Shown here: positions 343-34,453 of the stretch, in pieces
Numbering within the stretch: the first letter of the stretch is position 1
Layout: each line of letters begins with the position of its first letter
Source: Chloroflexota bacterium
GTDB taxonomy: Bacteria; Chloroflexota; Anaerolineae; Anaerolineales; UBA11858
Length of the DNA: 34,628 nt
NCBI GenBank assembly: GCA_030666985.1
Contig: DAOUWT010000004.1
Span: 1-34,628 of the forward strand
Reading direction: 5' to 3'
Program-made: the position numbers and the translations under genes
Notes under the pieces: model-generated
Seen by the model: only the letters and a program-made list of their open reading frames with translations
Databases searched by the model: none
What the model was told of the DNA's origin: nothing

Positions 343-1911
343 ATGAACGAGATTTCAAAAGAATCAATATTAATACTTGATGAAGATAGAGGCATTACTG
401 AACTTTGTGTTCGCGCCTTAAATGAGGCTGGATACCATGCTCTTGGTGTTAACTTCCCTGATGAGGGCATTGAAATCTTAGAGCGGCAGCCTATTGATGT
501 CTTGATGGTTGCTGCCCGAATGACTGGAATGGATAGCCGTCAATTTATAGAAATTGCCTGGCAGCAACAACCAGGTTTGGCCGTTGTGTTGATGACTGGC
601 TTGGGAGACATAGAGACAGCGATAAATTATCTTCTAAACCGAGTGGATGGTATTCTTATCAAGCATTTTAGTGAAGAAGAATTAGTCGAATGTGTTCAGC
701 AGGCGCTTCTTCATCGCCGTCAGAAATTAGTATCCATGCGTTTGCAGGCTTTAGAGCCACTCTTGAAAATTCTGAAAAATATCTTCGAGGTTCAAAGTTT
801 GGATGAGCTAGCAGAATTGGTCTTGCAGGCCATGAAAACCTTTTTGGGGTGCGAAAACGCAGCTATTTTCTTGCGCCGAGAAGGTATGAAAGGTGTATTC
901 GAGATCAGCCATGGCTATGGCAAAGTGCCTCCCCTATCTAAAATTTACAAAATCTATAAACCTGGCTTTGCCAACGTGATTGATCAATCGCTTTGTGTTG
1001 GCGCGGATGTTCTGGAGCAATATAGCCTGACCTCCTTGCTATGGATACCGATTTATGACTCCGAAGACCACTTGGGCGTTGTCGTTGCGGGGCGAAATAA
1101 AAAAGGACATGATTTTAGCAACATCGATTTAGAAGTAGCGAGCATATTTATTGGGCATATTGCGGGCGCCATAAGAAATTTGAAAGAGCAAATTGAGATT
1201 AGAGCACAAAGACAGCAAATTGAAGAGGCTCAGGAGTTGTTAGCACATATTCAGGCATCACGTCCCCTTGAGAGTTTAATGACCACTGTGGCTCATGAGG
1301 TGAATAATCCTTTACAGGCTATCCAGAGTAATCTGGAGTTGGTAGAAAGAGCAACTTCGCCTGAAAATCGTGCATATTATCTAGCCGTTGTGAAGCAGGA
1401 ACTTTCTCGTTTACGCGAAGTGGTGGCGAATATGCTGGATCTATATCGCCCTGGTCAGAAATCTAAAACCTCGTTTTCAATCAATGCAGCCCTTCAGCAG
1501 GTTCTAAACCTCTATGCCCCGAAACTTTCAGAGCAGGATATTAGCGTCCATACAAATTTTGCTGAAGATCTACCTGAAGTGTGGGGCTTGCAAGCCAGGA
1601 TGGAACAAGTGTTTGTTAATCTGATCATCAATGCCCTAGAGGCCATGCCCGAAGGAGGAAAGTTATTTGCATCAACAGAGTTGCAAAAAAACGGAATATC
1701 AATTATTATTAAGGATACAGGACATGGCATTCTTCCTGAGAACAAAAATAGGGTTTTCAAGCCCTTTTTTACCACAAAAGAGGATGGTCATGGACTCGGA
1801 CTAACAATTTGTGATAATATTATTAGTACAGAGCATCAAGGGAAAATAGAGTTACAAGCAAATAATGGAGAAGGCGCTTGTTTTGTTATGACTTTACCTT
1901 TTGGAGGGTGA
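343..1911 (+). CDS. Sensor histidine kinase: degenerate receiver - GAF - HisKA - HATPase
   Basis: H-box TTVAHEVNNPLQAIQSNLELV, N-box NLIINALEAMPEGG, G-boxes DTGHGILPENKNRVFKPFFTTKEDGHGLGLTI; N-terminus has receiver fold but VLMVAARMTGMD at the phosphoacceptor site. Confidence 0.93.
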   Translation: MNEISKESILILDEDRGITELCVRALNEAGYHALGVNFPDEGIEILERQPIDVLMVAARMTGMDSRQFIEIAWQQQPGLAVVLMTGLGDIETAINYLLNRVDGILIKHFSEEELVECVQQALLHRRQKLVSMRLQALEPLLKILKNIFEVQSLDELAELVLQAMKTFLGCENAAIFLRREGMKGVFEISHGYGKVPPLSKIYKIYKPGFANVIDQSLCVGADVLEQYSLTSLLWIPIYDSEDHLGVVVAGRNKKGHDFSNIDLEVASIFIGHIAGAIRNLKEQIEIRAQRQQIEEAQELLAHIQASRPLESLMTTVAHEVNNPLQAIQSNLELVERATSPENRAYYLAVVKQELSRLREVVANMLDLYRPGQKSKTSFSINAALQQVLNLYAPKLSEQDISVHTNFAEDLPEVWGLQARMEQVFVNLIINALEAMPEGGKLFASTELQKNGISIIIKDTGHGILPENKNRVFKPFFTTKEDGHGLGLTICDNIISTEHQGKIELQANNGEGACFVMTLPFGG

Positions 1912-1913
1912 TT

Positions 1914-2693
1914 ATGTCTACAGAAATTTTGATTGTTGATGATGAAAAAGCAGTTCGTGAATCTCTTCAGGATATTTTAGAGTTGGAAGGCTACGATGTA
2001 GAAGCTGTAGCTAGTGGTGAAGATGCTCTCGAGAGGCTAAATGAAGAAAAGTATGATCTCATACTCTTAGATCTTAAGATGGCCGGTATTGATGGGGTCG
2101 AGGTGATGCACCAGGCCAACCTATTGTATCCCTCGACTAAGATAATTGTCCTCACCGGTCATGGGTCTTTGGAATCGGCCATCGAAGCTGTTCAAATTGG
2201 CGCTCACGACTACCTCTTGAAACCTTTTGAAACCGAGGATATTCTAGCCAGCATTGAGCGTAGTTTTACTGCGAAGACTGAACGGCAGCGCAAAGAGTTG
2301 TTAATTGAGCAATTGGAATCTTCTCTTAATCAACTCAAGGATGTGGAAGGTATTACTACGCCAGACTTGCCCAGTCGCCGGATAGTTTCATTGCCCCAAG
2401 GGATCATGGTGGATTTGGAGCGCAGGGAAATATGGCGTGGTAACACGCGTTCTCACCTCACACCGACGGAAGGCAAATTGTTTGGGGCCTTCTTGGAGAA
2501 TCGCGCTCGGGTTATGACTCACCAGGAGGTTGTTTTCTTGGTACAGGGTTATGAAATAAATGAATGGGAAGCCCCTGAAGTCTTGCGCCCAATGATCAGC
2601 CGCTTGAGGAAGAAATTGGCTATCTTCCCTGGCATGGAGGATTGGGTGGGCAATGTCCGTGGGACTGGATACGTGTTTGACCCGAATCTGTAA
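1914..2693 (+). CDS. Response regulator, receiver + OmpR-type winged helix
   Basis: ILIVDDEKAVRESL, LILLDLKMAGIDG, VLTGHGS, DYLLKPF; C-terminal LTPTEGKLFGAFLENRARVMTHQEV...RPMISRLRKKL...VRGTGYVF. ATG at 1914 follows GGAGGGTG and the upstream stop; the ORF-track start at 1878 overlaps the upstream gene. Confidence 0.93.
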   Translation: MSTEILIVDDEKAVRESLQDILELEGYDVEAVASGEDALERLNEEKYDLILLDLKMAGIDGVEVMHQANLLYPSTKIIVLTGHGSLESAIEAVQIGAHDYLLKPFETEDILASIERSFTAKTERQRKELLIEQLESSLNQLKDVEGITTPDLPSRRIVSLPQGIMVDLERREIWRGNTRSHLTPTEGKLFGAFLENRARVMTHQEVVFLVQGYEINEWEAPEVLRPMISRLRKKLAIFPGMEDWVGNVRGTGYVFDPNL

Positions 2694-2760
2694 ATAGGAC
2701 TCGTCACACTGCGGGCCTGGCTTGCTTTGCATGCCTAAAGTGGTGTCCCTACTCTGAAAG

Positions 2761-2796
2761 AAAAACCTTCCCGGATTACCCTGGGAAGGTTTTTTT
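2761..2796 (+). terminator. Rho-independent terminator, possibly bidirectional
   Basis: AAAAACCTTCCC-ggattaccct-GGGAAGGTTTTTTT, perfect stem plus T tract, about 70 nt after the response regulator stop. Confidence 0.85.
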
Positions 2797-2829
2797 AGGA
2801 ACCGCGTTCCTCCGAGGAACGCGGTTCCT
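2797..2829. repeat. Perfect 15-bp inverted repeat AGGAACCGCGTTCCT-ccg-AGGAACGCGGTTCCT
   Basis: Both arms read directly; the left-arm 15-mer recurs identically at 7126-7140. Confidence 0.9.
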
Positions 2830-2934
2830 AATTTTGGGGGAGGGCGCCACGCGGGGGCGTGAGAGCAAACCCCAAGCGCAGTGCCACGCCTGAACGGGGA
2901 AAAACCCTGGGGGGGACGGGGGGGTGAGAAGAAC
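2830..2934 (+). repeat. Dispersed intergenic element, copy 1 (truncated)
   Basis: attttgggggagggcgccacgcgggggcgtgagagcaaaccccaagcgcagtgccacgcctgaacggggaaaaaccctggggg matches copies near 7745, 15013 and 26790. Confidence 0.8.
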
Positions 2935-2935
2935 T

Positions 2936-3005
2936 TCAGCGATCGGGCTGCCAGGGCACATCTCCTGAGAGGCGGGGTGCGCTCAACCAACTGAGCCATC
3001 CCCCA
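2936..3005 (-). other. tRNA-like fragment (5' acceptor and D-arm only)
   Basis: Reverse complement GGGGGATGGCTCAGTTGGTTGAGCGCACC has a tRNA 5' acceptor/D-arm pattern, but no convincing anticodon arm or GTTCGA T-loop follows. Confidence 0.4.
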
Positions 3006-3973
3006 GGCCTCTGTTTTGCCCGAGAGGTTTTCTTATCCCATCCTACTAGAATTAAGCTGACGCTCAACAGTGCCGCGCCGGCCCATTGGTAGAGGCTCAA
3101 TGATTCTTTAAGCCAGAAGTGGGCCACGATGATGGTCACAATCAGCTCGCTTAGGCCTAGCAAGGCGGTTTGCATTCCCCCAATGTTTTTTACCCCTAAA
3201 AATAACGTTAGCCGGGAACTGAATGTTACCAGGGTTAGGCCAATAAGCGGCCCCCAGGCAGGCAAAGTTGTTGGTAGGCCTCCCGACCCAGAGAAGATGA
3301 AAGTGGGTACTACGAGAGCGCTCATTGCTACAAGTGTGTAAAGGGTAACCGTGGGGGCTGGCATATCGTAGAGTACCCTTTGGTTGATAGGGAGATGGAG
3401 GGCATATAGGGCCGCCGCGATCAACATCTGGATAGCGCCAATAACATGAATGCTGCCCCCATCGGTTTTCATGAGCAGAGCGGCAGCCGGGATGGCCAAG
3501 GAAAGGCGGAATATAGTCATCTTGCTGGGTTTATTGCGGTCAAGGATCATCCAGAACGCCACAAAGACGGGATAGAAGGAGTTCAAGAGTTGGCCGATTC
3601 CAGCGTCTAAGTGGCTGAGAGAACTGTAGTAAAAGAGAGAACCCAGGCCATTTGTCCAGCCCGCCATGAGGCAGCCTAAAACCCCGGCGGGGTATATGTA
3701 GAGGTATTTTCGCTTGAAAATGGCTATCACGACAAAGAGCAAAAAAGTAGCCAAAAAGGTTCGGATGCCGACCACTGCCAGGGGTGGGACACCCAACAAG
3801 ATGGCCTTCTTCCCGAAGACGGGAGACATCCCCAGAAAGAACGCAGATGCCAGAGCAGAATAAATGCCTGTGGCGCGTTCTCCTCGGAACGATTCTTTGA
3901 AGGGATGTGTTATTTGCCTTCTAAACCTCGCGAGAGGGAAGGCTGTGCTAGTGTTTTCTGTGTTGTTTGTCAT
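2936..3973 (-). CDS. EamA/DMT-family transporter, C-terminus extended into tRNA-like sequence
   Basis: Ten-TM-like protein with two EamA-type repeats (SALASAFFLGMSPVFGKKAI, IGAIQMLIAAALYALHLPINQ); the tail GGWLSWLSAPRLSGDVPWQPDR is encoded by tRNA-like/repeat DNA. Confidence 0.85.
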   Translation of the reverse strand: MTNNTENTSTAFPLARFRRQITHPFKESFRGERATGIYSALASAFFLGMSPVFGKKAILLGVPPLAVVGIRTFLATFLLFVVIAIFKRKYLYIYPAGVLGCLMAGWTNGLGSLFYYSSLSHLDAGIGQLLNSFYPVFVAFWMILDRNKPSKMTIFRLSLAIPAAALLMKTDGGSIHVIGAIQMLIAAALYALHLPINQRVLYDMPAPTVTLYTLVAMSALVVPTFIFSGSGGLPTTLPAWGPLIGLTLVTFSSRLTLFLGVKNIGGMQTALLGLSELIVTIIVAHFWLKESLSLYQWAGAALLSVSLILVGWDKKTSRAKQRPGGWLSWLSAPRLSGDVPWQPDR

Positions 3974-4044
3974 GGATGAGGGGGATGCTGCTAAAGGTAA
4001 TTATTCAATGTCATTTAAGTTAAGGCTGCCGAATCCATCGTCCA

Positions 4045-4120
4045 GGGATAGTGAAGGTCTCCAGACCGAATGGTACCGCGTGTCAAAGGGGTGCCGCTCG
4101 GTTACAAACCTTCGCTATCC
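4045..4120. repeat. Palindromic intergenic element
   Basis: GGATAGTGAAGGT ... ACCTTCGCTATCC arms (12/13), with further inner pairing around ACCGAATGG/GCCGCTCGGT. Confidence 0.65.
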
Positions 4121-4149
4121 ATATTAGGCTGAACTGGCGGAGGTGACAG

Positions 4150-5835
4150 TTACTTGGTCAGACTTTTAACCTCTTCTAAGAGTTCATTGTCCATGAAATT
4201 GCCTTTTTGGAGTAAGGCATGGATGCGGCCCTGGAGACGCTGTTTTTCCTGGGGCGTGAGTGTTTTTGCCGTAACGACAATGACCGGGATAGAAGCTGTT
4301 TCGGGTTGGGAGCGAAGCTGATCGAGGACGGTGAAACCATCTTGTTTGGGCATCATCAAGTCGAGGATCATCAAGTCGGGAAGTTTCTCTTGGGCTATTC
4401 GAATGGCCTCGCTTCCATTTTGTGCTTCATAGAAAGTATACTCCCCTTGGGATTGGAGAATGCGCCGGATGAGGCGTCTGGCGTGGGGATGGTCATCCAC
4501 AATAGCAATGTGAGAATACTTGTCTGGTGTAACGCGGCTGAGCGCGGACAGGATGCCGTCCTCGGGGAATATTTCTGCTTCTTCTTCGGCGCGAGGAGGA
4601 AGGCTTACATCACGGGACCAGTCATCATCAAGGATCATCTTTTCAGTGGGAAGGGTGTGACCGGTGCAGTTGACGACGATGACTTCGTCGGGGTCAATTT
4701 GCCCGGCCCGGGTCATTTTGATCAATCCTGCAAAGGCGACGGCAGCCGCCGGTTCCATGGACATCCCCTCCATCTCGGCCAAAACGTGCATGGCGCGGAA
4801 GGCTTCTTCATCGGTGATGCTTTCGAAAGTGCCGCCCCGTTCTTCTAGCATCCACTTCCTAAGGAGGGTATAGGTCCGGCCTGGGTCTCCGGTGGCAAGG
4901 GTGGCTATTTTGGTGTGAGGTGTTAAAACGGGGTCTGCTACGTCTTGGTTGGCTTTCCAGGCTTTTGCCATGGGGGCGCAGCCAGCAGATTGAATCCCGG
5001 CAATTTGGGGGACATCATCCACCAGGCCCATTTGCCTTAGCTCGCGGTACCCTTTCATTACCCCCACTGCGCCTACTCCTCCGCTGAGGGACTGAAAATA
5101 CCAGTCTGGTGTTCGCCAGGGCGTGGTGGCGCTCCCTGGGGAGAGTTTCTCGGCGAGTTGTTCAGCTATCTCGAAGGCGACCGTTTTCATGGATTCCAAA
5201 GTGGAAATAGACCGTGTGCCCCTTTCGAGGTAAAGGCCGCCGGCTTGTTGCTTGGCAAATTGAGCCGCTAATGCCTTGGCCTGGTCGTAAGACGCGGTTA
5301 CTTTTATGACTTGGCTGCCATAAATTGCTACTTCGCGCATTTTTTCGGCCGGGACTAAGCTGGTTATGAAAGTCCACAATTTGATACCGGCCCGGGAGGC
5401 ATAAGCGGAATAAGAAATGGCGACATTACCCGTGGAGGCTAAGACAGCTTCGTTGACACCTGCTTCTTTGAGAGCCGAGATAGTGAGGATGGCTTGGCGG
5501 TCTTTGAAGGAGTTGGTTGGGTTCTGGCGTTCGTCTTTGATGTAGAGGTTCTTAAGCCCCAGCATCAGTCCCAGATTCTCTGCGCGGAGGAGCGGGGTAC
5601 CCCCCTCGCCCATGCTGATTTCAGAGCGCTCCTTGATAGGGAGAAGTTCAATACACCGCCAGAAGTCAAAGGGGCGACTTTTTATACGCTCTAGTAATTT
5701 TTTGCCTAGTGCGGGGTCTTCTTCATAACGAGCTACCCGCCACTTTCCATTGCATGCAGGGCAGCGAGACTCATGGAGACGATATTCGGTTTTGTGCCCA
5801 CAATCTAGGCATTCGATGTAAAAAATTTCGGCCAT
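4150..5835 (-). CDS. thrC: Threonine synthase (PLP-dependent) fused to a C-terminal response-regulator receiver domain
   Basis: Threonine synthase motifs: N-terminal CLDCGHKT/CPACNGKW zinc-ribbon-like region, GEGGTPLL, NPTNSFKDRQA (PLP lysine), STGNVAISYSAYASRAG, SGGVGAVGVMKGY. C-terminal receiver: IAIVDDHPHARRL, LMILDLMMPKQDGF, PVIVVTAKT. Start set at 5835 (MAEIFYIECLDCG) because the upstream 51 codons translate a heptamer repeat. Confidence 0.92.
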   Translation of the reverse strand: MAEIFYIECLDCGHKTEYRLHESRCPACNGKWRVARYEEDPALGKKLLERIKSRPFDFWRCIELLPIKERSEISMGEGGTPLLRAENLGLMLGLKNLYIKDERQNPTNSFKDRQAILTISALKEAGVNEAVLASTGNVAISYSAYASRAGIKLWTFITSLVPAEKMREVAIYGSQVIKVTASYDQAKALAAQFAKQQAGGLYLERGTRSISTLESMKTVAFEIAEQLAEKLSPGSATTPWRTPDWYFQSLSGGVGAVGVMKGYRELRQMGLVDDVPQIAGIQSAGCAPMAKAWKANQDVADPVLTPHTKIATLATGDPGRTYTLLRKWMLEERGGTFESITDEEAFRAMHVLAEMEGMSMEPAAAVAFAGLIKMTRAGQIDPDEVIVVNCTGHTLPTEKMILDDDWSRDVSLPPRAEEEAEIFPEDGILSALSRVTPDKYSHIAIVDDHPHARRLIRRILQSQGEYTFYEAQNGSEAIRIAQEKLPDLMILDLMMPKQDGFTVLDQLRSQPETASIPVIVVTAKTLTPQEKQRLQGRIHALLQKGNFMDNELLEEVKSLTK

Positions 5836-6345: not shown

Positions 6346-6417
6346 GCGGGTGTCGCCAAGTGGTAAGGCATCAGCTTCCCAAGCTGACATTCGTCGGTTC
6401 GAATCCGATCACCCGCT
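6346..6417 (+). tRNA. tRNA-Gly (anticodon CCC)
   Basis: GCGGGTG/CACCCGC acceptor, GCC...GGC D-arm, TCAGC-TTCCCAA-GCTGA anticodon arm, GTCGG-TTCGAAT-CCGAT T-arm; CCA not encoded. Confidence 0.95.
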
Positions 6418-6511
6418 CTTTTATGTCCCGCCTGTAGGGGGTATTCCCTTTGATACAAACATGACATCACTGCTAGATCGGAAGATTTTCGCTACAAGCG
6501 GAAGGTATAAG

Positions 6512-6732: not shown

Positions 6733-7116
6733 ATGAGTTCACAACCAATTATACTCTGCGTAGAAGATAACTTGAGAAACCGGGTTTTACTCAAGCGCAT
6801 ACTCCAACATCAAGGGTATGAAGTCCAAGAAGCTAAAGACGCCCATCAGGCTCTAGAAATCTTGAAAACACTCGTCCCAGATTTGATTCTGATGGATATA
6901 AACATGCCTGATGTAGATGGCTTTGCATTGACTCAAAAACTAAGAAGAAAACCCAAATTAGCAGATGTTCCCATAATCGCGATTACCGCGAACGTCATGA
7001 AAGGGGATCGAGAACGCGTACTCGAAGCCGGTTGTGATGGCTATATTGAAAAGCCAATTGATATTGACGAATTAACCTCTCAAGTAAGCTTGTTCTTAGG
7101 CGTCGTCAAGAAATAA
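6733..7116 (+). CDS. Stand-alone CheY-like receiver
   Basis: CVEDNLRNRVLL, LILMDINMPDVDG, AITANVM, YIEKPID. Confidence 0.93.
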   Translation: MSSQPIILCVEDNLRNRVLLKRILQHQGYEVQEAKDAHQALEILKTLVPDLILMDINMPDVDGFALTQKLRRKPKLADVPIIAITANVMKGDRERVLEAGCDGYIEKPIDIDELTSQVSLFLGVVKK

Positions 7117-7212: not shown

Positions 7213-7659
7213 ATGACTAACACAGACCCCAAAAACACAAACACCGCCCAAGGCAAAATTCCAAAAGAGACCACTATTCTCGTAGTCGAAGATAACGTCT
7301 CTAACTTTGTGCTCATTGCCCGGCTCCTGGGGTATATGGGCATTCATTGTGAATGGAAAACTTCAGGGTACGAAGTTGTAGAGTACGCCGATACCCTCCC
7401 CCGTCTGGATCTTGTGCTGATGGACATCCGCTTGCCCTACGAAGATGGATATGGTGCTCTGAAACAGATCCGCTCCGCGCCAAGACTGGAAGATACCCTT
7501 ATTGTGGCAGTGACCGCTCACGCCAGTCAAGAAGAGATGAAAAAATGTCGGGAAGCCGGTTTTGATGGTTTTATTGCCAAACCTATTGATCCGGACCGGT
7601 TCCCGGAGCAAGTCAAGAGGATATTAGCAGGCGAGTCCATTTGGAATTTGGGTCAGTAG
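7213..7659 (+). CDS. Stand-alone CheY-like receiver
   Basis: ILVVEDNVSNFVLI, LVLMDIRLPYEDGYG, AVTAHAS, FIAKPIDPDRF. Confidence 0.92.
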   Translation: MTNTDPKNTNTAQGKIPKETTILVVEDNVSNFVLIARLLGYMGIHCEWKTSGYEVVEYADTLPRLDLVLMDIRLPYEDGYGALKQIRSAPRLEDTLIVAVTAHASQEEMKKCREAGFDGFIAKPIDPDRFPEQVKRILAGESIWNLGQ

Positions 7660-8091: not shown

Positions 8092-10989
8092 ATGCCCCAA
8101 GCCACACCCACCTCTAAGCCCAGATTCCGCGGTAAGCTCTCCCGCACTATGCTGTTGCTCATCATACCCATTACTCTAGTACCAATCTTAATTGTGGGGA
8201 GCATTGCTTACTTTGGGGCTAGAGACTTGCTTAAAGAGCGAAGTTTTGCCCAACTCTCCACAATAGAAAAAAGCATAGAAAGCCAAATCAACTCCTGGAT
8301 TGGAGAGAAACATGTTTTTCTATATAACACAGCTAAGGAAAGCGAATTCTCTGATGCTATTGATGAATTCCTCTCCCTAGAGAAAGAAGACCCAGGGTTT
8401 AGCACCACAGGGGAAACTATCCTCTCGGAACTCGATCAAGCCAACGCCCAAAGATTGCAACCTGTTTTCGATTACTTCGTTGTCGTAGACCAGGAGGGGG
8501 AAATACTCGCTGCTCCGCTCGCTGACTGGATAGGCGACACAGTAAACGACGAAGATTTTTTCACCAGCTTAAGCAAAGGTTCGGCTCAGTCTAAAATCAC
8601 CTTCAGGCTTCATCCTTTCCAAGCAAGCGATACCATCATTCTCACAGCAGTGCCAATCCTTGATGAAAACGCCTCATTAGCAGGAGCTATTCTTGCTATC
8701 ACACGAGATGATGACCTAAGAGAATTCCTACGATTAGCCCAAATCTTTCCCGCCAGCCGGGCATATTTCATCAATACAGACAAAATGTACCTGGGAGTTA
8801 CAGAGCTTCTCAAGAAAGTTACCCGCTTGGAACCAACAATAGAACAAAAACAAGTTCTGGAAGCAGGCCTTGCCGAAGGTATGGAAAGTGGGGAGAGTTA
8901 CCTGGAAATGGCTTACCCCTCCTTCAAATCTGAGACGGTTTTCGGGACATTCACCTGGATTTCGAGCCTCAATAGCGGCATAGTGGTGGAAATACCGACA
9001 TCTGAAGTATATGCCCATCTAAACGATTTGTTCCCTCTAGCGGGAGGATTGATAGTTATTCTCGGCGTGGTTCTAGGGACATTAATTCGATTTGGCGCGA
9101 ACCGGATCGTTGGGCCCATCATCCAGATAGCGGAAACGGCCAACAATATCGCCCAAGGGGACTGGCAAAAAAGAGTCCCCGAGACACGCCGCGATGAAAT
9201 TGGCCTGTTGGCTTATTCCTTCAATGAGATGACTGACCAATTAGTAGAATTCTACAGGTTAATGGAAGCAAAAGTCCAGGAGCGAACTGAGCAAATCTAT
9301 GCTATCTCGGAGATTGAGGGTGAGATGAGTTCGGTGTCTACGGTGAGAGAGTTACTTGATGTCACGATCCGGAGCATTGATGAGAAATTCGATTTTTCTC
9401 ACATTGCCATCTACGAACTAAATCCTTCCCGACAATATGCCGTATTACGAAGAATTGCTGGGGAACGAGAGCCACAAATGCTCTCTGATCGCTATACGCT
9501 GAATATAAGTTCGCACGCCTTAATGAAATCTGCTGTCAACACCCTACAGCCCAGCACAACCTACAGTGGTGATGAAAAGGTTCAATTCGGTCATGACCGT
9601 CTTCCCGAATCCCAGGCGGCAGCGATTTTCCCCATCCTCTTCCGAGGAGAAGTATATGGCATTCTCAGCCTACAAAGCAAACATACCCTTGCTTTTAGTG
9701 AGAGCATGCTGGCTGCGGTACGAATCATTACCGAACACGTTACGTTTTCCATGCAAAATATCCGTTCACAACAAGCCACAGAAATCGACTTGGCCGAAAC
9801 CTCCCATCTTTATCTAGCCGGTCAGCGCATATCACAAGCTGAAAACTGGGGCGAGATCGTAGAAATCATAGCCGAGACCTTTGAAGACATCTCATTTATC
9901 TCAGGGATTTTTGTCACCGAAGGCAATCGATTCCGGATAAGATCAATAGTTGATCCCGAAGACAAGCGGCTTATTCCTCACGCAAAATGGCTGCCGGTCT
10001 CTGTGCAAGAGGTGGAAGCCTCCCTTCCAGGAACAGAGCCTTTCCTGGTTATCAAAGATTTGGAGAATCCCCAGGGAATTCCCTCCCAACTGCTTGAAAT
10101 CCCCCGAGGGCTTGATTGCCAAGATTTAGCGATTTTCCCAATCTACGGAGGTGAACGTTTATCCGCGCTCATCCTGCTCGGGTCGCGGGAAACGGATTCC
10201 ATCAATCCTTCTACGATCCAACCCTATACAAATTTCATTGCCATGACAAGCGTAGCTTTTGCAAAAATATCGACCATGCACACGATCAACCAACAGCTTG
10301 CCGAACTTCAAACAATCCAAGAGATCAGCCAAGCCGTTACCCAAGAAACGAATCTTGCTAAACTCTACCAAGCACTCCACGAACAGGTCCGAAAAGTTAT
10401 GGGGGATGTCAGCTTCCTGATTACTATCTACGATCAAGAGGCGAAACAAATTCATATCCCATACATGTATGCGAAAGAATCTGGCCTAGCCACCGTCCCC
10501 CCTTTCCCGCTAGGAGAAGGGTTAACTTCCATCGTCATCAAGACTAAAAAACCTCTGATGCTCGTAGAAAACACTCAAGAAAGAGCCGAAGCTCTAGGCG
10601 CAAAAATAGTGGGAATACCTGCTCAATCCTGGTTAGGCGTCCCAATGATCGTACAAGGGGAACCAATTGGCACAATCACAATCCAGGACACGAAACACGA
10701 ACAAGCCTTCGACGAAGAAGACATGGAGTTATTGACCACATTGGCATCGCAAATCGGGATTGCTATCCGCAATATAATCTACCTGGAAGCAACCCAAGAA
10801 CGTTCTCTACGCCAACAACAGCTTTTCGAAGCTACCAGCAAACTCAGGAGTTCTACGGATATGCAGACAATCCTGGAAACTACCGTCCAAGAAGTCGGCA
10901 AAATGTTTGGCACCAAAAGCGCCAGGATAAAAGTTTTCCCCCGCCAAGAACCCTCTCCTCAATTCGGTAAGGAGGAGGTAAAGGCATGA
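8092..10989 (+). CDS. Membrane sensor, dCache-like - HAMP - multiple GAF, no kinase domain
   Basis: N-terminal TM, long periplasmic segment, second TM at FPLAGGLIVILGVVLGTLIRF, HAMP-like region NRIVGPIIQIAETANNIAQGDW...RRDEIGLLAYSFNEM, then GAF repeats; no HisKA/HATPase motifs. Confidence 0.88.
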   Translation: MPQATPTSKPRFRGKLSRTMLLLIIPITLVPILIVGSIAYFGARDLLKERSFAQLSTIEKSIESQINSWIGEKHVFLYNTAKESEFSDAIDEFLSLEKEDPGFSTTGETILSELDQANAQRLQPVFDYFVVVDQEGEILAAPLADWIGDTVNDEDFFTSLSKGSAQSKITFRLHPFQASDTIILTAVPILDENASLAGAILAITRDDDLREFLRLAQIFPASRAYFINTDKMYLGVTELLKKVTRLEPTIEQKQVLEAGLAEGMESGESYLEMAYPSFKSETVFGTFTWISSLNSGIVVEIPTSEVYAHLNDLFPLAGGLIVILGVVLGTLIRFGANRIVGPIIQIAETANNIAQGDWQKRVPETRRDEIGLLAYSFNEMTDQLVEFYRLMEAKVQERTEQIYAISEIEGEMSSVSTVRELLDVTIRSIDEKFDFSHIAIYELNPSRQYAVLRRIAGEREPQMLSDRYTLNISSHALMKSAVNTLQPSTTYSGDEKVQFGHDRLPESQAAAIFPILFRGEVYGILSLQSKHTLAFSESMLAAVRIITEHVTFSMQNIRSQQATEIDLAETSHLYLAGQRISQAENWGEIVEIIAETFEDISFISGIFVTEGNRFRIRSIVDPEDKRLIPHAKWLPVSVQEVEASLPGTEPFLVIKDLENPQGIPSQLLEIPRGLDCQDLAIFPIYGGERLSALILLGSRETDSINPSTIQPYTNFIAMTSVAFAKISTMHTINQQLAELQTIQEISQAVTQETNLAKLYQALHEQVRKVMGDVSFLITIYDQEAKQIHIPYMYAKESGLATVPPFPLGEGLTSIVIKTKKPLMLVENTQERAEALGAKIVGIPAQSWLGVPMIVQGEPIGTITIQDTKHEQAFDEEDMELLTTLASQIGIAIRNIIYLEATQERSLRQQQLFEATSKLRSSTDMQTILETTVQEVGKMFGTKSARIKVFPRQEPSPQFGKEEVKA

Positions 10990-12605
10990 AATTTCTATCT
11001 TCGCTCTCCTCTAAACCAGGAATGGGCTTCCTCCCAAAAGAGAACGCCGAAATCGGTAAGCTCCGAGAAAAGCTTTTAGCCGTACTCCTCTACGTAGCTC
11101 TAGGGCCCGGTTTAGCTGTATATTACATCAGCATCCGAGACGCTGTCGCGCTCCGGGAATGGGGGTTAGTAGCTTTCTACACAATAGTATTTGGCTGGGT
11201 AATGGCAATAACATTCTACCGCCGTCTGTCCTATAATCTCAGGGCTGGCAGTTTGGTCGGGATTCTTTATATGCTTGGAGTAGGTGTCTCCATACTATAC
11301 GGGCTAGGAGGTGATGGGCGGATATGGATGCTGGGATTCACCGCGCTAACGTCGATCTTCTTCAGCCCTCAATTGAGCATTATTATCACCCTATTAGGTA
11401 CAGTGAGCTTAGCAGGCATAGGATGGGCACTAAATCAGGGCTTGATTTCTACCCAGACCCTTTTCCTTTATCCCGTGTCTAGTTGGATCCCAACAGTCAT
11501 TACTTTCCTCCTTGTCAGCCTTATCATAGGAGGCACTACTGGTTACCTGCTGGCTATTCTTGCGGAACGCTTGGTAAGGGAACGCGATCTCAGCGATGAA
11601 TTAGAACACGACCGCCAAGAACTGAGAGAAAAAGCCACCGGCTTAGAACGGAGACAACGCCAATTACGCACAGCAGCCGATATTTCCCAAACAATCGCGG
11701 CCGAGCTAGACCCTCTTACCCTCTTCCAGCAAACGGTCAACCTCTTAACTAAACGCTTTGGCTTATATTACGCTGGCGTATTTGTAGTAGACGAAGAAGA
11801 ACAATACGCCATACTTCAAGCCGGTTCCGGGGAAGCTGGGCAGGCAATGCTCGCTGAAAAGCACCAACTGATAATCGGCGGGAGTTCTATGATCGGCTGG
11901 ACGATAGCCCACAAGCAACCCCGCATCGCTCTTGATGTGGGAAGAGAAGCTGTCCGCTTCGACAACCCTCACCTCCCCCTGACCCGTTCCGAGCTTGCTC
12001 TACCCATGACCAGCCGTGGTCGGGCCTTGGGCGCACTTACCATCCAATCCGCTGAGGCAGAAGCTTTCGACGAGGACGACATTACCATCTTGCAGACAAT
12101 CGCCGATAGTTTGGCCACAGCGCTTGAGAACGCCCAACTCTACCAACAATCGCAGAGCAACCTGGGAGAAATCCGCACGCTCCACCGTCAATACCTCCAA
12201 CAGGCCTGGGAAACGGTTGCCCAAAACCGCACCGATCTTGAATATGCATTCGAAAGCGAGCAGCTCTCCCAATATGAAGGGGAGCTATCGATCATAGAGG
12301 CTCCTCTCATCCTACGCGGACAGCAAATTGGCAATTTGGTACTCAAGACTGACAACCCAGAGTTAACTGCAGAAGAGGAGAGCATGTTGAATGCCATCAC
12401 CACGCAGGCGGCTCTCGCCCTGGAAAACGCCCGTCTGATCGAGGAAGCCCAAAAACGCTCCCAGCAAGATCGCATTGTTTCCGAGATTGCCGGCAAAGTG
12501 CAGCGTGCTACAAAAATCGATGAAGCCCTGAAAACAACGCTCCGGGAATTGGGACAGACCTTGGGTGCTTCCGAAGGAACGATTCACTTGGAGATAAGAG
12601 AATGA
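10986..12605 (+). CDS. 6-TM sensor - GAF protein, no kinase domain
   Basis: Hydrophobic N-terminus with FYRRLSYNLRAGSLVGILYMLG and GDGRIWMLGF; GAF RIALDVGREAVRFDNPHLPLTRSELALPM; ATGA overlap with upstream gene. Confidence 0.88.
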   Translation: MKFLSSLSSKPGMGFLPKENAEIGKLREKLLAVLLYVALGPGLAVYYISIRDAVALREWGLVAFYTIVFGWVMAITFYRRLSYNLRAGSLVGILYMLGVGVSILYGLGGDGRIWMLGFTALTSIFFSPQLSIIITLLGTVSLAGIGWALNQGLISTQTLFLYPVSSWIPTVITFLLVSLIIGGTTGYLLAILAERLVRERDLSDELEHDRQELREKATGLERRQRQLRTAADISQTIAAELDPLTLFQQTVNLLTKRFGLYYAGVFVVDEEEQYAILQAGSGEAGQAMLAEKHQLIIGGSSMIGWTIAHKQPRIALDVGREAVRFDNPHLPLTRSELALPMTSRGRALGALTIQSAEAEAFDEDDITILQTIADSLATALENAQLYQQSQSNLGEIRTLHRQYLQQAWETVAQNRTDLEYAFESEQLSQYEGELSIIEAPLILRGQQIGNLVLKTDNPELTAEEESMLNAITTQAALALENARLIEEAQKRSQQDRIVSEIAGKVQRATKIDEALKTTLRELGQTLGASEGTIHLEIRE

Positions 12606-15010: not shown

Positions 15011-15012
15011 TC

Positions 15013-15189
15013 ATTCAAATCCCGTGGATTTTTGGGAGAGGGCCCCACGCGGGGGCGTGAGAGCAACCCCCAGGCACAACGCCACGCTTGAGCGGGGAAA
15101 ACCCTGGGGGGTGGCATCGCGCTGGGGCGAGGTTTTTCCATCCCCCAGCCGCTTGCGTCCCCGCCAACATCCAACATGGAGTGAATGAT
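15013..15189 (+). mobile_element. Dispersed intergenic element, copy 3, 177 bp with 8-bp terminal inverted repeats
   Basis: ATCATTCA (15013-15020) ... TGAATGAT (15182-15189); internal hairpin CACGCggggGCGTG at 15049-15062. Confidence 0.8.
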
Positions 15190-19950: not shown

Positions 19951-19952
19951 CA

Positions 19953-22052
19953 ATGCAGTGGCAATTTAACTCATACGTGTTAACGCTGGCTATAATTGGT
20001 GCAATATCAGTAGTTGTCGCTTCCTTCGCATGGAGACACCGCTCTACCTCTGGCGCTGCGGCCTTGTTTTACCTCATGCTGGGCGGATGTATTTGGTCGT
20101 GGACTTACGCTGTGGAGATTGGCAGCTACGATCTCCCTACCAAAGTTTTTATGAGCCAGATGATGTACATTGGTGTTGTCAGTGTTCCGGTGATGTGGCT
20201 GATCATGGCATTTCAATACGCTGGTCGCGATAGGTGGTTAACAACGCGTAACTTGGTTCTCTTGTGGATCATACCTGTAATCACGCTGGCGCTTTCCTGG
20301 ACGAATGGGGTCAACGATGGGCACGGCTTGATTTGGAAGTATATTGAACTTGACTTCAGCGGGTCGTTTGCTGCCTGGGATGTAACCTATGGCTCATTTT
20401 TCTGGGTTTCGGCTGGATACGGATACCTGTTAATTTTGCTTGGTTCTTTACAACTTATCTCCACAGTAACCCGCTTGTCGCAATTTTACCGCGGTCAAAT
20501 TGGACTTATGTTAACTGCCTCGCTTACACCATTAGTGGGGAACGTATTATATCTCTCGGGCATGAATCCTTTCCCTGGCCTTGACCTGACACCCTTCGTA
20601 TTCACACTATCAGGGTTGATGATGTTATGGGCAATCCTTCGCTTTCGATTATTTGATTTCGATATTGTACCTGTGACACGCGATGCCATCATGGAAGGTT
20701 TAAGCTACAGTGTGCTTATATTGAACACACAAAACCGAGTCGTAGACCTCAACCCAAATGCAGAGCAGATCACTGGTCACCCTGCAGTAGAAATAATAGG
20801 GCAAAGGATCAAACAGGTATTCCCCCACCAGGCTAGCGTGTTCGAATACTATCAGGATATTGAAGATGCACATACAGACTTCCTTGTAGGGCAAGGGGAA
20901 ACGCGACGTACTTACGATATGCATATCTCCCCATTATACGTGGGTAAGCATAAACACCTTTCTGGGCGGATGGTAACCTTACAGGATATTACAGAGCGAA
21001 GACGGGAGCAAGTAACCCTGGAACGCCGCTCACAACAACTTCAGGCAGCCGCAGAGGTTGGACGTGCTGCGGCTACGATCCGCAATATTGAAGACCTCCT
21101 ATCCCAGGTGGCTCACCTGATTAGTGAAAGATTCGGCTTCTACCATGTAGGCGTCTTTCTTGTCGACGAAAATAAGGAATACGCTGTGTTACAAGCTGCC
21201 AACAGTGAAGGTGGAGAGCAGATGCTAGCAAGAGGGCATCGCTTAAAGATTGGCGAAGTTGGCATTGTAGGATATGTCACCGCCCAACAAGAAGCGCGTA
21301 TCGCTCTGGACGTAGGCGGGGATGCGGTCTACTTCGATAATCTTGACCTGCCCGAAACACGCTCCGAGATGGCTCTTCCCCTCATGGTTGGGGATGAGTT
21401 ATTGGGCGCTCTCGACGTGCAAAGCAAACGCGAGGCTGCCTTCTCCAAGGAAGACATTGCCGTCTTGCAGACTCTGGCAGACCAGATCGCCGTTGCTATC
21501 GAAAACGCGCGTTTGTTCAGCGAACGCCAGGAAGCGTTGGAAGCTGCCCAACGGGCTTATGGTGAGCTTAGCCAGGAAGCCTGGGGTGAATTGCTGCGTA
21601 CTCAACCTGAGCTTGGTTTCCTCTCCACTCTCACCCATCAGGCTCGCCCGGCTGCGGGTGACTGGTCTCCCGGTATGCTAGAAGCCACCCAGCGAGGCAG
21701 GATCACGCCCATTGACCAAAGGACAATCGCCATCCCCATTATCTTGCGTGACCAGGTGCTCGGTGTCGTGCGACTCCAAAAACCCGAAAACGCCAATCCC
21801 TGGCATGAAGATGAAATCGAACTCATGGACACCCTCATTGACCAGCTTGAAGTCGCTTTAGAAAGCGCCCGTCTCTACAAAGAGACACAACAACGCGCTG
21901 AACGAGAACGTCTGGTGACAGACATCACCACCAAGATACGCTCCACCACCGATCCCGAGCAAATGCTGCAAACTGCGGTTGAGGAACTCAAACGAGCGTT
22001 AAATACCTCTCAGGCTCACTTTGTAGTCCCCCAGGCAGAAAGGGTTGAGTGA
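19953..22052 (+). CDS. HisKA_7TM-like N-terminal sensor - PAS - GAF protein, no kinase domain
   Basis: LFYLMLGGCIWSWTYAVEI...VPVMWLIMAFQYAGRDRWL...NGVNDGHGLIW; PAS VLILNTQNRVVDLNPNAEQITGH; GAF RIALDVGGDAVYFDNLDLPETRSEMALPL. Confidence 0.88.
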   Translation: MQWQFNSYVLTLAIIGAISVVVASFAWRHRSTSGAAALFYLMLGGCIWSWTYAVEIGSYDLPTKVFMSQMMYIGVVSVPVMWLIMAFQYAGRDRWLTTRNLVLLWIIPVITLALSWTNGVNDGHGLIWKYIELDFSGSFAAWDVTYGSFFWVSAGYGYLLILLGSLQLISTVTRLSQFYRGQIGLMLTASLTPLVGNVLYLSGMNPFPGLDLTPFVFTLSGLMMLWAILRFRLFDFDIVPVTRDAIMEGLSYSVLILNTQNRVVDLNPNAEQITGHPAVEIIGQRIKQVFPHQASVFEYYQDIEDAHTDFLVGQGETRRTYDMHISPLYVGKHKHLSGRMVTLQDITERRREQVTLERRSQQLQAAAEVGRAAATIRNIEDLLSQVAHLISERFGFYHVGVFLVDENKEYAVLQAANSEGGEQMLARGHRLKIGEVGIVGYVTAQQEARIALDVGGDAVYFDNLDLPETRSEMALPLMVGDELLGALDVQSKREAAFSKEDIAVLQTLADQIAVAIENARLFSERQEALEAAQRAYGELSQEAWGELLRTQPELGFLSTLTHQARPAAGDWSPGMLEATQRGRITPIDQRTIAIPIILRDQVLGVVRLQKPENANPWHEDEIELMDTLIDQLEVALESARLYKETQQRAERERLVTDITTKIRSTTDPEQMLQTAVEELKRALNTSQAHFVVPQAERVE

Positions 22053-22126: not shown

Positions 22127-22891
22127 ATGACCCAAATCATTGCCCTAGCCAACGAAAAAGGCGGTGTAGCCAAAACCACAACCGCAGCCTCCTTGGGGGG
22201 CGCTCTGGTAGAGGGTGGCCAGGAAGTCCTCTTGGTGGATCTTGACCCTCAGGCCAGCCTAACCCTGGCCCTGGGCATCCCCCCCCACAAAGTGAGCCAC
22301 TCTGTGGTTGATCTCCTCCTCAGCGCCAACACTCCCTTGAGTGTGAGCGTGGAAACCTCCCTGGCGGGGCTGGACATCATCCCCTCCAATTCAGAGATGA
22401 CCCTGGCAGAACGCTTTTTACCTATTCGTGAAAACTACAAACACATCCTCCGCAACAGCCTTCGTCAGGCGACAATGTACGATACGATCTTGATAGATTG
22501 TCCACCCTCTATGGGAGCCGTTACTCAAAACGCCCTCGTGGCGGCAGATTTAGTAATCATCCCAACCCAACCGGAATACTTATCCGCTTACGCCCTCCGG
22601 AATATGCTCCCCATTATCAAAAACATCCGGGAAAACGAGAATGCTGACCTCAAATACCGTATACTCATCACCATGCTCGATATCCGTTTGAACTCGCATA
22701 ACTATATTGCCAAGCAGCTTCGATCTAAATTGGGTAACATAGTGTTCAAGACGAATATCCAAGTAGACAGTAAATTACGTGAGTGTACCATAGAAGGTTT
22801 ACCTATTACTCATTTCACCCCGCAAAGCCGTGGGGCTAAACAATACCGCGCTTTGGCTCAGGAGTTGAGTTCGAATGCCAACACAAGATAA
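22127..22891 (+). CDS. ParA/Soj-like partitioning ATPase
   Basis: Deviant Walker A NEKGGVAKTTTAASLG, VLLVDLDPQASLT, DTILIDCPPSMG; overlaps the start of the next CDS. Confidence 0.93.
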   Translation: MTQIIALANEKGGVAKTTTAASLGGALVEGGQEVLLVDLDPQASLTLALGIPPHKVSHSVVDLLLSANTPLSVSVETSLAGLDIIPSNSEMTLAERFLPIRENYKHILRNSLRQATMYDTILIDCPPSMGAVTQNALVAADLVIIPTQPEYLSAYALRNMLPIIKNIRENENADLKYRILITMLDIRLNSHNYIAKQLRSKLGNIVFKTNIQVDSKLRECTIEGLPITHFTPQSRGAKQYRALAQELSSNANTR

Positions 22892-25800
22892 ATTCTCAAG
22901 ACTTGAAGAACTTTTTATAGACCTCGGAGAAGCGCCCCGCCCGCTTTCTCGAAAAGAGTCCCCCAAAACCTTGGGTTGGACCTGGGAATGTGATAGCAAG
23001 GGGTCGTACGCCACTTGCAGTTCTTCAGTAGAGGACGCCTTGGGCTACACTCCAAATGATTTCATAGGGCAAGCGTTCACTGAATTTGCGGTGGATGAGG
23101 GATCACAATCTGAGCTAGCCACTACCTTCATCAAAACCTTAGAGGCTCAACACTGTCCCGTTGAGGTTTCGATCAACTATCAAAGTGCCACAGGGAAAAA
23201 GATCCCGGTCATTGTTCACATCCTCAGCTCTCCCCAACCTGGGGAAGAGGAAGGGAGGTGGCAAGGCTTTAGCGAAGTCCCCCCCCCCATGCCCCCCTTG
23301 CCCCCCCCGACCCCCTCTATCCCCCCTTCACCCCTGCCGGCCTTGGTATATAAGCCGGGTGCTGTCCCCATCACACAAATTGGTTATAGAAGTCTCCAAA
23401 CGAGAAGCGTCATAGCCGGACATTCCGCTTTGGCAGTTCCAGTAGAAATGCAAGGAAACCAAGTTGGTTTATTGGAATTCACTGATGAGAATAGGCCGCA
23501 GTGGAGCAAAGAGGAACAGCAATTAGTCAAAGAAGTAGCCCTCCAACTCTCTCTCGCTTTAGAAAACGCCAGCCTTTTCGAGGAAACCCAACAACGCTCC
23601 CAAGAGCTAACTCTCATTAACCGCATTGTCTCTGAAGTGGCGGCCTCACTTGACCTCACCAAGAGCTTGGAAGTCGTGGCCGAAGAGGTAGGCAAGGCTC
23701 TGAACGTGCAAACGGGCATTGCTCTAACCAACGCAAGTGGAAGTGCTTCAACAATCGTTGCAGATTACTCGCCCAACCCGGACCGCCCCTCCCCCAAGGG
23801 TCTTGAAATCCCCATTATAGGAAATCCTTCTAGTGAACGTGTTATGGAGACCAAGAGGCCGGTCATAATCGAGAAAGCTCAAGAAGACCCCCTCACCGCC
23901 CCCATTCAAGAAATGCTGCGGCAGCACAATGTTCACGGTTTAGGGATTTTCCCCCTCATTGCCCAAGACGAAGTAATTGGAACCGTTGGCCTGGATATAC
24001 TCGAAGAAAGACGCTCTTTCACAGAGGACGAGATCCGCTTAGTTGAGACGATCATCACCCAAGCGGCAACAGCAATCCAAAACGCTCAACTCTTCGATGA
24101 AGTGCAAAGGCGCAGCGTCCAACTCCAGGCCGCGGCCGAAGTCTCTCGAGCTGCCAGCAGTACCCTGGAGACTAATCTCCTCCTCCAGCAAACTGTGGGG
24201 TTGATCCGTGACCGCTTTGACTTATATTACGTTGGCATTTTCCTAATAGATGAAAAAGGGATATGGTCAGACGAAGCCGGGCACTGGGCCGTCCTGCGGG
24301 CTGGAACGGGGGAAGCGGGACGCCTTCAAGTAGAACGAAGACACAAACTTGAAATTGGCGGCCGTTCGATGATTGGAGAATGTATTACCACTGGAGAGGC
24401 AAATATCTCTCAACTAGCCCCAGAGGAAGCACGCCGCTTTGCTAATCCTCTTCTGCCAGATACTAAATCGGAAATGGCTCTTCCTCTGATCAGCCGTGGG
24501 AAAGTGATTGGGGCCATGAGTATTCAAGATGTAGAAACAAACGCTTTCTCCAAAGAAGATATTTCTGTCTTCCAAACCATGGCCGACCAGGTGGCCAACG
24601 CGCTGCAAAACACTACTCTCGTCTTTCAAACCCAGCAAAACGCAAAAGAATTGGAGGTTCTCAACGAAATGGGCCAGGTGTTGAGCAGCCAACTAGACAC
24701 CGACAAGATTATCAGCACCATTTATCAATACGTCTCACGGCTTATGGACACAAGCTACTTTTTTGTGGCGTTGTACGAAGACCAAAAAGAAATGTTGTCT
24801 TTCCCCTTGGTCGTTGAAAACAATCAGCAAAGCCAAATTCCACCCATGAAAAAAAGCAGGGGATTGACACAACACGTCATTGACTCAAAAGAACCCCTGC
24901 TCATAACCGAAAATGTAGAAGGGGTGATCGCAGACCTCGGCCTAGAGCGCATAATCGTAGGGGAACCCGCCAAATCCTGGCTGGGCGTGCCCATGATAAT
25001 TGGTGATGAAGTGCTCGGAGTGATCTCGACTCAAAACGCAACTAAGCCCAAGATGTTCGATGAGCATCACCGCGAGTTGCTCCTGGCAGTCGCCCGGCAA
25101 TCTGCTATCGCCCTCCAAAATGCGCACCTCTTCGAACAGACACAGCGCCAACTGGCAAACATTTCTACCATTCAGGAAACCACCGCCGGCCTGAGCGCAG
25201 CCCTGACCTTTGACGGGGTTGTCAATACGCTGCTGGCACATATCTCTGCGGCAATTAAGGTAGATGTATCTAGCTTGTACATAATCGAAGGAGACCATCT
25301 TATACGAGTAGGAGTATACCCGGCGAGCGAAGGCTCCCCAGTCACTGGCGAAAAGCTCCCCTTATCTAAGTATCCTCTAACTAAATCCGTCATTGAAAAT
25401 AGAGAAGCCCTAGCACTCTCTGCAGATGATCCACGACTGCAAGAACACGCTCACGAAGCTTTCGAAGCCGCTGGAATCGCTTTCAACGCCACAATTCCCA
25501 TCACCGGTCCCGAGGGTATACTAGGATTGATCTCTCTCAGCCGCAACCACCCAACCGATAGGTTCACCGAGGAAGAAATCAGCCTGCTCAGCACGCTGGC
25601 AAACCAGGCTGCCGTAGCTCTTGACAACGCCCGTTTGTATGAAGAACAACGGGAGACCTCCGAGGAACTCCGTGAGTTAGATAAACTTAAATCACAATTC
25701 CTGGCCAATATGTCGCACGAGCTGCGCACCCCGCTCAATTCCATCATCGGCTTCTCGCGCGTGATCATGAAAGGCATCGATGGACCTGTCACCGATCTCC

Positions 25801-26756
25801 AAACACAAGACCTCAGCGCCATCCACGAATCAGGCCAACACCTCCTGACTATGATCAACGATATTCTTGACATCTCTAAAATCGAATCTGGGAAGATGGC
25901 CCTTTCTCTCGAAGTTCTAAACATACCAGACATCATAGATAGTATTCTCACCACTGTGGCTGGCTTAATAAAAGACAAACCAATCGAGTTGCGAAAAGAG
26001 ATCGAGCCAAACCTTCCTGAAGCCCGTGCTGACCCTGTTCGCATCAGACAGGTACTGCTCAATTTCTTTTCCAATGCTGCCAAGTTCACCGAAGAAGGCA
26101 CTATCACTGTCACAGCAGAGACAACTGATATAAAAGAAGAAATTCGCATCAGCGTCACCGATAGTGGGCCAGGGATTTCAAAAGAGGATCAGAAAAAATT
26201 ATTCAAACCTTTCTCGCAAATAGATGGTACCACCACTCGTGAAGAAGGCGGAACCGGGCTGGGGCTTTCCATCTCCCGCCAACTCATCGCCATGCAAGGC
26301 GGGACAATTGGCGTAGAAAGCGACTCCGGTGAAGGAAGCACTTTCTTCTTCACCATCCCTGTAGCACTCCCAACGAAAATCCCCCAAAAAACCGAGGTCA
26401 AAACGATCTTGGCAATTGAGAACGATGAAAACCTGATCGATCTCTATAAGCGTTATCTTACCCATAGCGAATATCACGTCATCCCTCTCACCGAATCTGA
26501 CCTTGCAATGCAATATGCTAGAACTCTAGAACCAGCTTTCATCATACTGGATGTTCTCTTCTCTCACGAAGAGGGATGGGAAATCCTAGAAGCCCTCAAA
26601 GACGATCCTCAACTAAGCTCCATCCCCGTTATCATCTGCAGCATCCTGGACGAGAAAGAAAAAGGTCTAGCTTTAGGGGCGGATGCCTATTTGACCAAGC
26701 CAATCCTAGAAAACGATCTAATAGCAAGCATCGAGGAACTTAAAGGGAGGGAGTAG
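22875..26756 (+). CDS. Hybrid histidine kinase: PAS - multi-GAF - HisKA - HATPase - receiver
   Basis: H-box FLANMSHELRTPLNSIIGFSRVI, N-box VLLNFFSNAAKFTEEG, G-boxes DSGPGISKEDQKKLF and GGTGLGLSISRQL, C-terminal receiver AFIILDVLFSHEEGWE...AYLTKPI. Confidence 0.95.
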   Translation: MPTQDKFSRLEELFIDLGEAPRPLSRKESPKTLGWTWECDSKGSYATCSSSVEDALGYTPNDFIGQAFTEFAVDEGSQSELATTFIKTLEAQHCPVEVSINYQSATGKKIPVIVHILSSPQPGEEEGRWQGFSEVPPPMPPLPPPTPSIPPSPLPALVYKPGAVPITQIGYRSLQTRSVIAGHSALAVPVEMQGNQVGLLEFTDENRPQWSKEEQQLVKEVALQLSLALENASLFEETQQRSQELTLINRIVSEVAASLDLTKSLEVVAEEVGKALNVQTGIALTNASGSASTIVADYSPNPDRPSPKGLEIPIIGNPSSERVMETKRPVIIEKAQEDPLTAPIQEMLRQHNVHGLGIFPLIAQDEVIGTVGLDILEERRSFTEDEIRLVETIITQAATAIQNAQLFDEVQRRSVQLQAAAEVSRAASSTLETNLLLQQTVGLIRDRFDLYYVGIFLIDEKGIWSDEAGHWAVLRAGTGEAGRLQVERRHKLEIGGRSMIGECITTGEANISQLAPEEARRFANPLLPDTKSEMALPLISRGKVIGAMSIQDVETNAFSKEDISVFQTMADQVANALQNTTLVFQTQQNAKELEVLNEMGQVLSSQLDTDKIISTIYQYVSRLMDTSYFFVALYEDQKEMLSFPLVVENNQQSQIPPMKKSRGLTQHVIDSKEPLLITENVEGVIADLGLERIIVGEPAKSWLGVPMIIGDEVLGVISTQNATKPKMFDEHHRELLLAVARQSAIALQNAHLFEQTQRQLANISTIQETTAGLSAALTFDGVVNTLLAHISAAIKVDVSSLYIIEGDHLIRVGVYPASEGSPVTGEKLPLSKYPLTKSVIENREALALSADDPRLQEHAHEAFEAAGIAFNATIPITGPEGILGLISLSRNHPTDRFTEEEISLLSTLANQAAVALDNARLYEEQRETSEELRELDKLKSQFLANMSHELRTPLNSIIGFSRVIMKGIDGPVTDLQTQDLSAIHESGQHLLTMINDILDISKIESGKMALSLEVLNIPDIIDSILTTVAGLIKDKPIELRKEIEPNLPEARADPVRIRQVLLNFFSNAAKFTEEGTITVTAETTDIKEEIRISVTDSGPGISKEDQKKLFKPFSQIDGTTTREEGGTGLGLSISRQLIAMQGGTIGVESDSGEGSTFFFTIPVALPTKIPQKTEVKTILAIENDENLIDLYKRYLTHSEYHVIPLTESDLAMQYARTLEPAFIILDVLFSHEEGWEILEALKDDPQLSSIPVIICSILDEKEKGLALGADAYLTKPILENDLIASIEELKGRE

Positions 26757-29095: not shown

Positions 29096-29190
29096 ACAGT
29101 GTTCAGTTTTCAGTATTCAGTAACCGACACGAGTTCCTATTCGACTACCCGACTACTGACTACCCGACTATCAGACTACATGACTATCTA
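29096..29190. repeat. Heptanucleotide-type repeats (TTCAGTA/TTCAGTT, then GACTACC/GACTATC)
   Basis: gttcagttttcagtattcagtaa ... gactacccgactactgactacccgactatcagactacatgactatc. Confidence 0.8.
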
Positions 29191-31719: not shown

Positions 31720-31834
31720 TTCCCCAACTCAACTACCCAATATCTAATACCAAATATCAAATACCCCCATTCTTCACTCCCTTCCCAAGCCCCAACTACC
31801 CAATTACTCAACTATCTAACTACCCAACTATCTT
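31720..31834. repeat. Degenerate heptamer/octamer array (ACCCAAT, CAACTAC, CCCAACT)
   Basis: ccaactcaactacccaatatctaataccaaatatcaaata...ccaactacccaattactcaactatctaactacccaactatct. Confidence 0.7.
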
Positions 31835-34440: not shown

Positions 34441-34453
34441 ATTAAATACCATT

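Follow-up and report, generated by a model that had tools for sequence, protein, structure and literature searches.

A threonine synthase-like PLP protein fused to a receiver domain and linked to histidine kinase and EamA transporter genes in Anaerolineae

Receiver domains joined to metabolic-type enzymes are recurrent in bacteria and archaea, and the examples described, which include KaiC-like proteins, a BcsA-like glycosyltransferase, thioredoxin reductase and pyruvate phosphate dikinase, are narrow in their distribution (PMC5847659). A receiver-like domain, the N-terminal 'wing', is also carried by the extended AAT-fold decarboxylases of lysine, ornithine and arginine, according to a second study (PMC8503589). 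We analyzed a 34,628-nucleotide stretch of a Chloroflexota genome (the window, meaning the whole of that stretch) which encodes, in one protein, a zinc ribbon, a fold-type-II PLP domain resembling threonine synthase (ThrC) and a receiver (REC). This protein, referred to here as the fusion, differs in its enzyme from the response regulators with enzymatic output in the first study, in the text of which the words pyridoxal and threonine are absent. The decarboxylases of the second study share with the fusion the pairing of a PLP enzyme with a receiver-derived domain, but they have another PLP fold and their receiver is N-terminal; in the passages on them a linked kinase is unmentioned, and no word in phosphorylat- occurs in the text. 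Threonine synthases (TIGR00260) are the best matches by sequence and fold, with the fold-type-II PLP core, the NPTxSFKDR lysine motif, the STGN loop and the TGH motif in common, whereas the fusion has a replaced phosphate-binding signature and GNAGN loop, a score below the family cut-off, a clade of its own and a C-terminal receiver. The PRK08197/NF006050 family has the same N-terminal zinc ribbon and domain order, but its member in the source genome has YRLEGKKT and GGGTG, and the fusions are without both. No paper on a ThrC-like/REC fusion was found in a search of the open-access literature. Fusions of receivers with metabolic enzymes are already known as a kind, and it is the wide conservation and the kinase and exporter linkage that set this one apart.

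The fusion is read on the minus strand from an ATG at 5835 to a stop codon ending at 4150 and has 561 aa; starting at a TTG further upstream (5988) would lengthen it to 612 aa, but the alignment of relatives begins at the ATG instead. The preliminary description had proposed that one ORF holds a PLP enzyme and a C-terminal receiver, and this is borne out, as both Pfam domains are present (PALP, PF00291, 4.6e-62; Response_reg, PF00072, 8.1e-23) along with all of the motifs quoted at that time. In the enzyme domain these are the Schiff-base lysine K111 within NPTNSFKDRQ (codon 5503-5505), ASTGN with STGN at residues 134-137 and the SGGVGAV loop, with TGHT present as well, and in the receiver they are IVDDH (D447, D448), the acceptor aspartate D492 within LMILDLMMP (codon 4360-4362), VVTAK (T522) and QKGN (K544). 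Across an alignment of 121 fusion ORFs, which counts some genomes twice because it draws on two collections and so does not amount to 121 independent genomes, K111, S134-N137 of STGN, SGGxG, the GH motif, D448, D492 and K544 are invariant, while position 447 is D or E and position 522 is T or S. All 121 sequences therefore have the acidic pair, acceptor Asp, Thr/Ser and Lys expected of a response regulator, and the fusion also has the fold-type-II PLP core and Schiff-base lysine expected of a threonine synthase, as judged by Pfam, K111 and fold matches. An AlphaFold2 model built from an alignment of 46 fusions had a mean pLDDT of 80.6, with weak stretches in the linker (~390-430) and at the C-terminal end, the last receiver helix being poorly modelled; Foldseek grouped its enzyme domain with the threonine synthases 2zsj, 2d1f, 6nmx and 1v7c.

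Table 1. Positions of the fusion, its domains and associated genes in the window
Feature	Positions	Strand	Basis
Zn-ribbon / PLP fold-type-II (ThrC-like) / receiver (REC) fusion	4150..5835	-	ORF, Pfam, full-length homologs
N-terminal zinc-ribbon motif of fusion, C9-x2-C12 ... C25-x2-C28	5752..5811	-	Four Cys invariant, 121 sequences
PALP catalytic domain of fusion	4660..5619	-	Pfam PF00291, conservation, ThrC fold match
Linker of fusion, consensus EEGLLAAL, conserved G427, L429, A431, L432	4513..4608	-	Invariant alignment columns; model helix 428-432
Receiver domain of fusion	4168..4509	-	Pfam PF00072, conserved site residues
EamA-family transporter, next gene 3' of fusion	2936..3973	-	Pfam PF00892 6.6e-25
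Receiver + winged-helix response regulator, convergent conserved neighbour	1878..2693	+	Pfam; 78% identity to syntenic G007 gene
REC-GAF-HisKA-HATPase histidine kinase beside the response regulator	343..1911	+	Pfam
Multi-GAF hybrid histidine kinase, ortholog of the relatives' fusion-upstream kinase	22875..26756	+	Pfam; 68% identity to L013 kinase; SHELRTP H-box
ParA-type ATPase, same signalling cluster	22127..22891	+	Pfam AAA_31; 80% identity to L013 ParA / G007 ortholog
7TM-PAS-GAF sensor protein, same cluster	19953..22052	+	Pfam; GAF part 78% identical to L013 gene upstream of ParA

With 429 contigs the assembly of the source genome is fragmented, and the cluster appears locally rearranged in the window; both points would favor the idea that assembly or annotation had joined a thrC-like gene to a receiver gene. 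We regard the likelihood of such an artefact as negligible, given that the full-length architecture is repeated in many independent assemblies, including those of cultured isolates; the same observation rules out a frameshift or a chimeric join between the domains. At the junction around 4500-4620, which had been singled out as the place to check, the frame is open and continuous in relatives, both in the closest one (G007, same genus, 82% identity) and in others at 45-68% identity. Of the 396 genomes sampled from the class Anaerolineae, 145 had the architecture (91 of 233 in the better-quality subset), as did 29 of 251 genomes sampled phylum-wide. Among the best 80 loci listed in a scan of named genomes, nearly all were titled Chloroflexi or Anaerolineae/Anaerolineales, and one bore a Blastopirellula title. 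Isolates with the fusion include Thermanaerothrix daxensis, Anaerolinea thermolimosa, Bellilinea caldifistulae, Longilinea arvoryzae and Ornatilinea apprima. Among plasmid records there was none covering 80% of the query. Two unusual forms were set aside: in G370 a 1784-aa open frame suggested a one-piece fusion of kinase and enzyme, but neither a kinase nor a GAF domain could be detected in its N-terminal part, which looks like a spurious GC-rich frame, and the 812-aa form in L163 and L214 is a variant with tandem receivers and a spurious-looking N-terminal extension.

Having been named a threonine synthase in the preliminary description, the enzyme domain was compared with curated families and solved structures. 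The fusion scored 146-148 bits against the thrC model (TIGR00260), for which the cut-off is 167.1, and 226.7 bits against PRK08197/NF006050, which was still its top-scoring NCBIfam model although the cut-off there is 303. Five solved ThrCs (PDB 2zsj, 1uim, 2d1f, 6cgq, 1e5x) have in common NSxNxxRxEGQKT, which includes residues that hold the phosphate of phosphohomoserine, whereas most of the fused clade has [DE]-x-G-x-x-x-x-x-x-x-E-x-[MF]-K-T at this place and SGG[LMV]G[PA] in place of the GNAGN/GNLGN loop. The fused PALP domains form one separate clade (support 1.0) on a long branch. Three other proteins of the source genome are above the thrC cut-off, and the best of them (contig C44) retains the signature and is encoded near a homoserine dehydrogenase gene, so that the fusion is ruled out as the sole housekeeping ThrC. 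No homoserine kinase above the thrB cut-off was found in this genome, which is 88% complete. In view of the scores below cut-off, the replaced signature, the separate clade and the other ThrCs in the genome, threonine synthase is, on sequence grounds, a weak label for the fusion, and this part of the preliminary description was not upheld.

It could nevertheless be argued that the fusion is a true threonine synthase, converting O-phospho-L-homoserine to threonine under two-component control, with the EamA protein exporting threonine or homoserine. Threonine synthases are its best solved relatives, EamA relatives include threonine/homoserine exporters, and a gene for a PRK08197-type threonine synthase is located downstream of the fusion in six clade-B loci. 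Set against these points are the curated cut-offs for both families, the loss of the NSxNxxRxEGQKT and GNAGN elements from the fused clade, and the presence of three further proteins over the thrC cut-off, one of them on a contig with homoserine dehydrogenase. We consider a phosphorylation-controlled true ThrC to be quite improbable, and it ranks second among the rival explanations.

In relatives the cluster is ordered as GAF sensor protein(s), a ParA-type ATPase, a giant multi-GAF hybrid histidine kinase, the fusion and an EamA transporter, with a winged-helix response regulator and a REC-GAF kinase on the opposite strand; the order of the latter two is as in the window in L020, L023, L025, L026 and L028 as well. 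Among the matches listed, and with ORF calls and small home-made HMMs rather than curated gene models as the basis of the counts, a multi-GAF histidine kinase gene is immediately 5' of the fusion on the same strand at 75 of 78 named loci, EamA is immediately 3' at 74 of 77 and the convergent response regulator is found at 52 of 77. The three kinase exceptions have the look of split or miscalled cases: in L052 and L113 the upstream gene resembles the receiver end of a kinase that has been split, and in L112 a small antisense ORF lies between. The gap between kinase and fusion is mostly -4 to ~80 bases, and the SHELRTP H-box was present in 110 of the 115 kinases upstream of a fusion. The linkage of kinase, fusion and EamA genes is well supported. 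The suggestion that two-component signaling controls amino-acid synthesis was thus sustained in its first half, there being a kinase gene directly upstream at nearly all of the named loci among the matches listed, and not in the half concerning threonine synthase and amino-acid synthesis.

The layout of the window itself is exceptional in that the orthologous ParA and kinase genes are 16-21 kb from the fusion. Relative to G007, a block carrying the fusion and EamA genes together with those of the response regulator and the second kinase is inverted (343-5835), and the apparent breakpoint of the cluster is at 5.8-6.8 kb, where a tRNA-Gly is encoded (6346-6418). The operon was split in the window either by rearrangement or by an assembly join near 6 kb, and in either case the fusion is untouched. 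By the breakpoint are two consecutive stand-alone receiver genes (6733-7116 and 7213-7659, plus strand), the first of which has 44-49% identity to clade-B stand-alone receivers. Beyond them, also on the plus strand, six sensor-type genes run from 8092 to 22052 (dCache-HAMP-GAF, MASE11-GAF, PAS-GAF and HisKA_7TM-PAS-GAF) ahead of the ParA and giant kinase genes; Pfam detected GAF domains in the six and found no HisKA or HATPase domains. The remainder of the window holds a plus-strand ORF with an adenylate/guanylate cyclase domain and an AAA_16 ATPase domain (27061-29085), a MoeA-like molybdopterin enzyme with a fused C-terminal PBP-like domain (29099-31135, plus strand) and a minus-strand ORF of 874 aa (31828-34452) with no Pfam match at E 0.001.

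Three subtypes were distinguished by the placement of receivers. In subtype A, which includes the window, the kinase bears one or two receivers and an EamA gene is present; in subtype B the kinase is receiver-less and the fusion is usually followed by a stand-alone receiver gene; and in subtype C the enzyme carries two receivers (about 700-720 aa). Within subtype C the immediately upstream kinase is without a receiver in L210, L211, L212 and L214, while in L213 a receiver gene intervenes and in L209 an upstream kinase was not seen. In six clade-B loci (L033, L164-L168) the PRK08197-type gene adjoins the fusion or follows the stand-alone receiver. A receiver tree in which the first receiver of the kinase (REC1) clusters with the stand-alone receivers had moderate support and is suggestive of receivers having moved between kinase, fusion and stand-alone gene. 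Kinase and enzyme remain associated whether a receiver is attached to the former, attached to the latter or encoded separately, as would be expected of one phosphorelay. Likewise, the subtypes with receiver-less kinases keep the fusion, mostly with an adjoining stand-alone receiver gene, as expected if the receiver of the fusion is the target of the kinase. Since most subtype-A kinases have one or two receivers of their own, phosphate might also pass elsewhere, and since no EamA gene adjoins the fusion in clade-B and several other loci, any export would not be universal.

Based on the upstream kinase and downstream EamA genes at the named loci among the matches listed, the fusion is most likely an enzymatic response regulator of its neighbor kinase, with phosphorylation altering the PLP enzyme and EamA perhaps exporting the product; we put the probability of this reading at roughly 0.6. 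Counting in its favor are that both active sites are invariant over the 121 sequences, that the tandem-receiver variants too adjoin kinases, that the window retains the orthologous kinase (68%) and ParA (80%), albeit at a distance, and that housekeeping ThrC is separate and the fused PALPs are a clade of their own, whereas the absence of the kinase from beside the fusion in this window counts against it. The kinase would integrate signals received by its own GAF and PAS domains and by the cluster's membrane GAF proteins, and would phosphorylate D492 of the fusion, either directly or by way of its own receivers. Once D492 is phosphorylated, the PLP enzyme would change in activity; the conserved linker helix might bring this about through a shift in dimer packing. 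Less certainly, the compound that the enzyme makes or breaks may be amino-acid-like without being threonine, and the EamA permease encoded alongside may export it. In the chief rival explanation the PLP domain serves as a ligand sensor and does not act as an enzyme, in which case binding of an amino acid or a PLP adduct would set phosphorylation of the receiver, or its behavior as a phosphate sink, and so tune the neighbor kinase. PLP folds act as sensors in transcription factors (MocR/GabR), the context of the fusion is one of signaling throughout, and the separate clade of fused PALPs has changed substrate residues. However, an invariant Schiff-base lysine together with STGN, SGGxG and GH exceeds what a binding-only domain would seem to need, and an exporter gene is attached in most loci. 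The invariant catalytic lysine and the linked exporter gene thus favor an active enzyme, and a sensor role appears unlikely.

Proteins of this family that carry a threonine synthase annotation may have a different function, and such annotations should be treated with caution. Most two-component systems act on transcription. In the present one, a large multi-sensor kinase seems to have an enzyme of metabolic type as its direct output, in an arrangement conserved across a large and poorly understood bacterial group. The kinase, fusion and EamA gene order across this large group of Chloroflexota suggests that the kinase may switch the making and export of an amino-acid-like molecule. We speculate, tentatively, that Anaerolineae and their relatives use a multi-sensor kinase whose output is not a DNA-binding regulator but a PLP enzyme gated by phosphorylation; this enzyme would make a new amino-acid-like metabolite for export by EamA, possibly as a cell-to-cell signal. 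Should the enzyme prove to make a small molecule and the permease to export it, environmental sensing would be connected to metabolite release by a new route, one that the proteins of cultured species allow to be tested.
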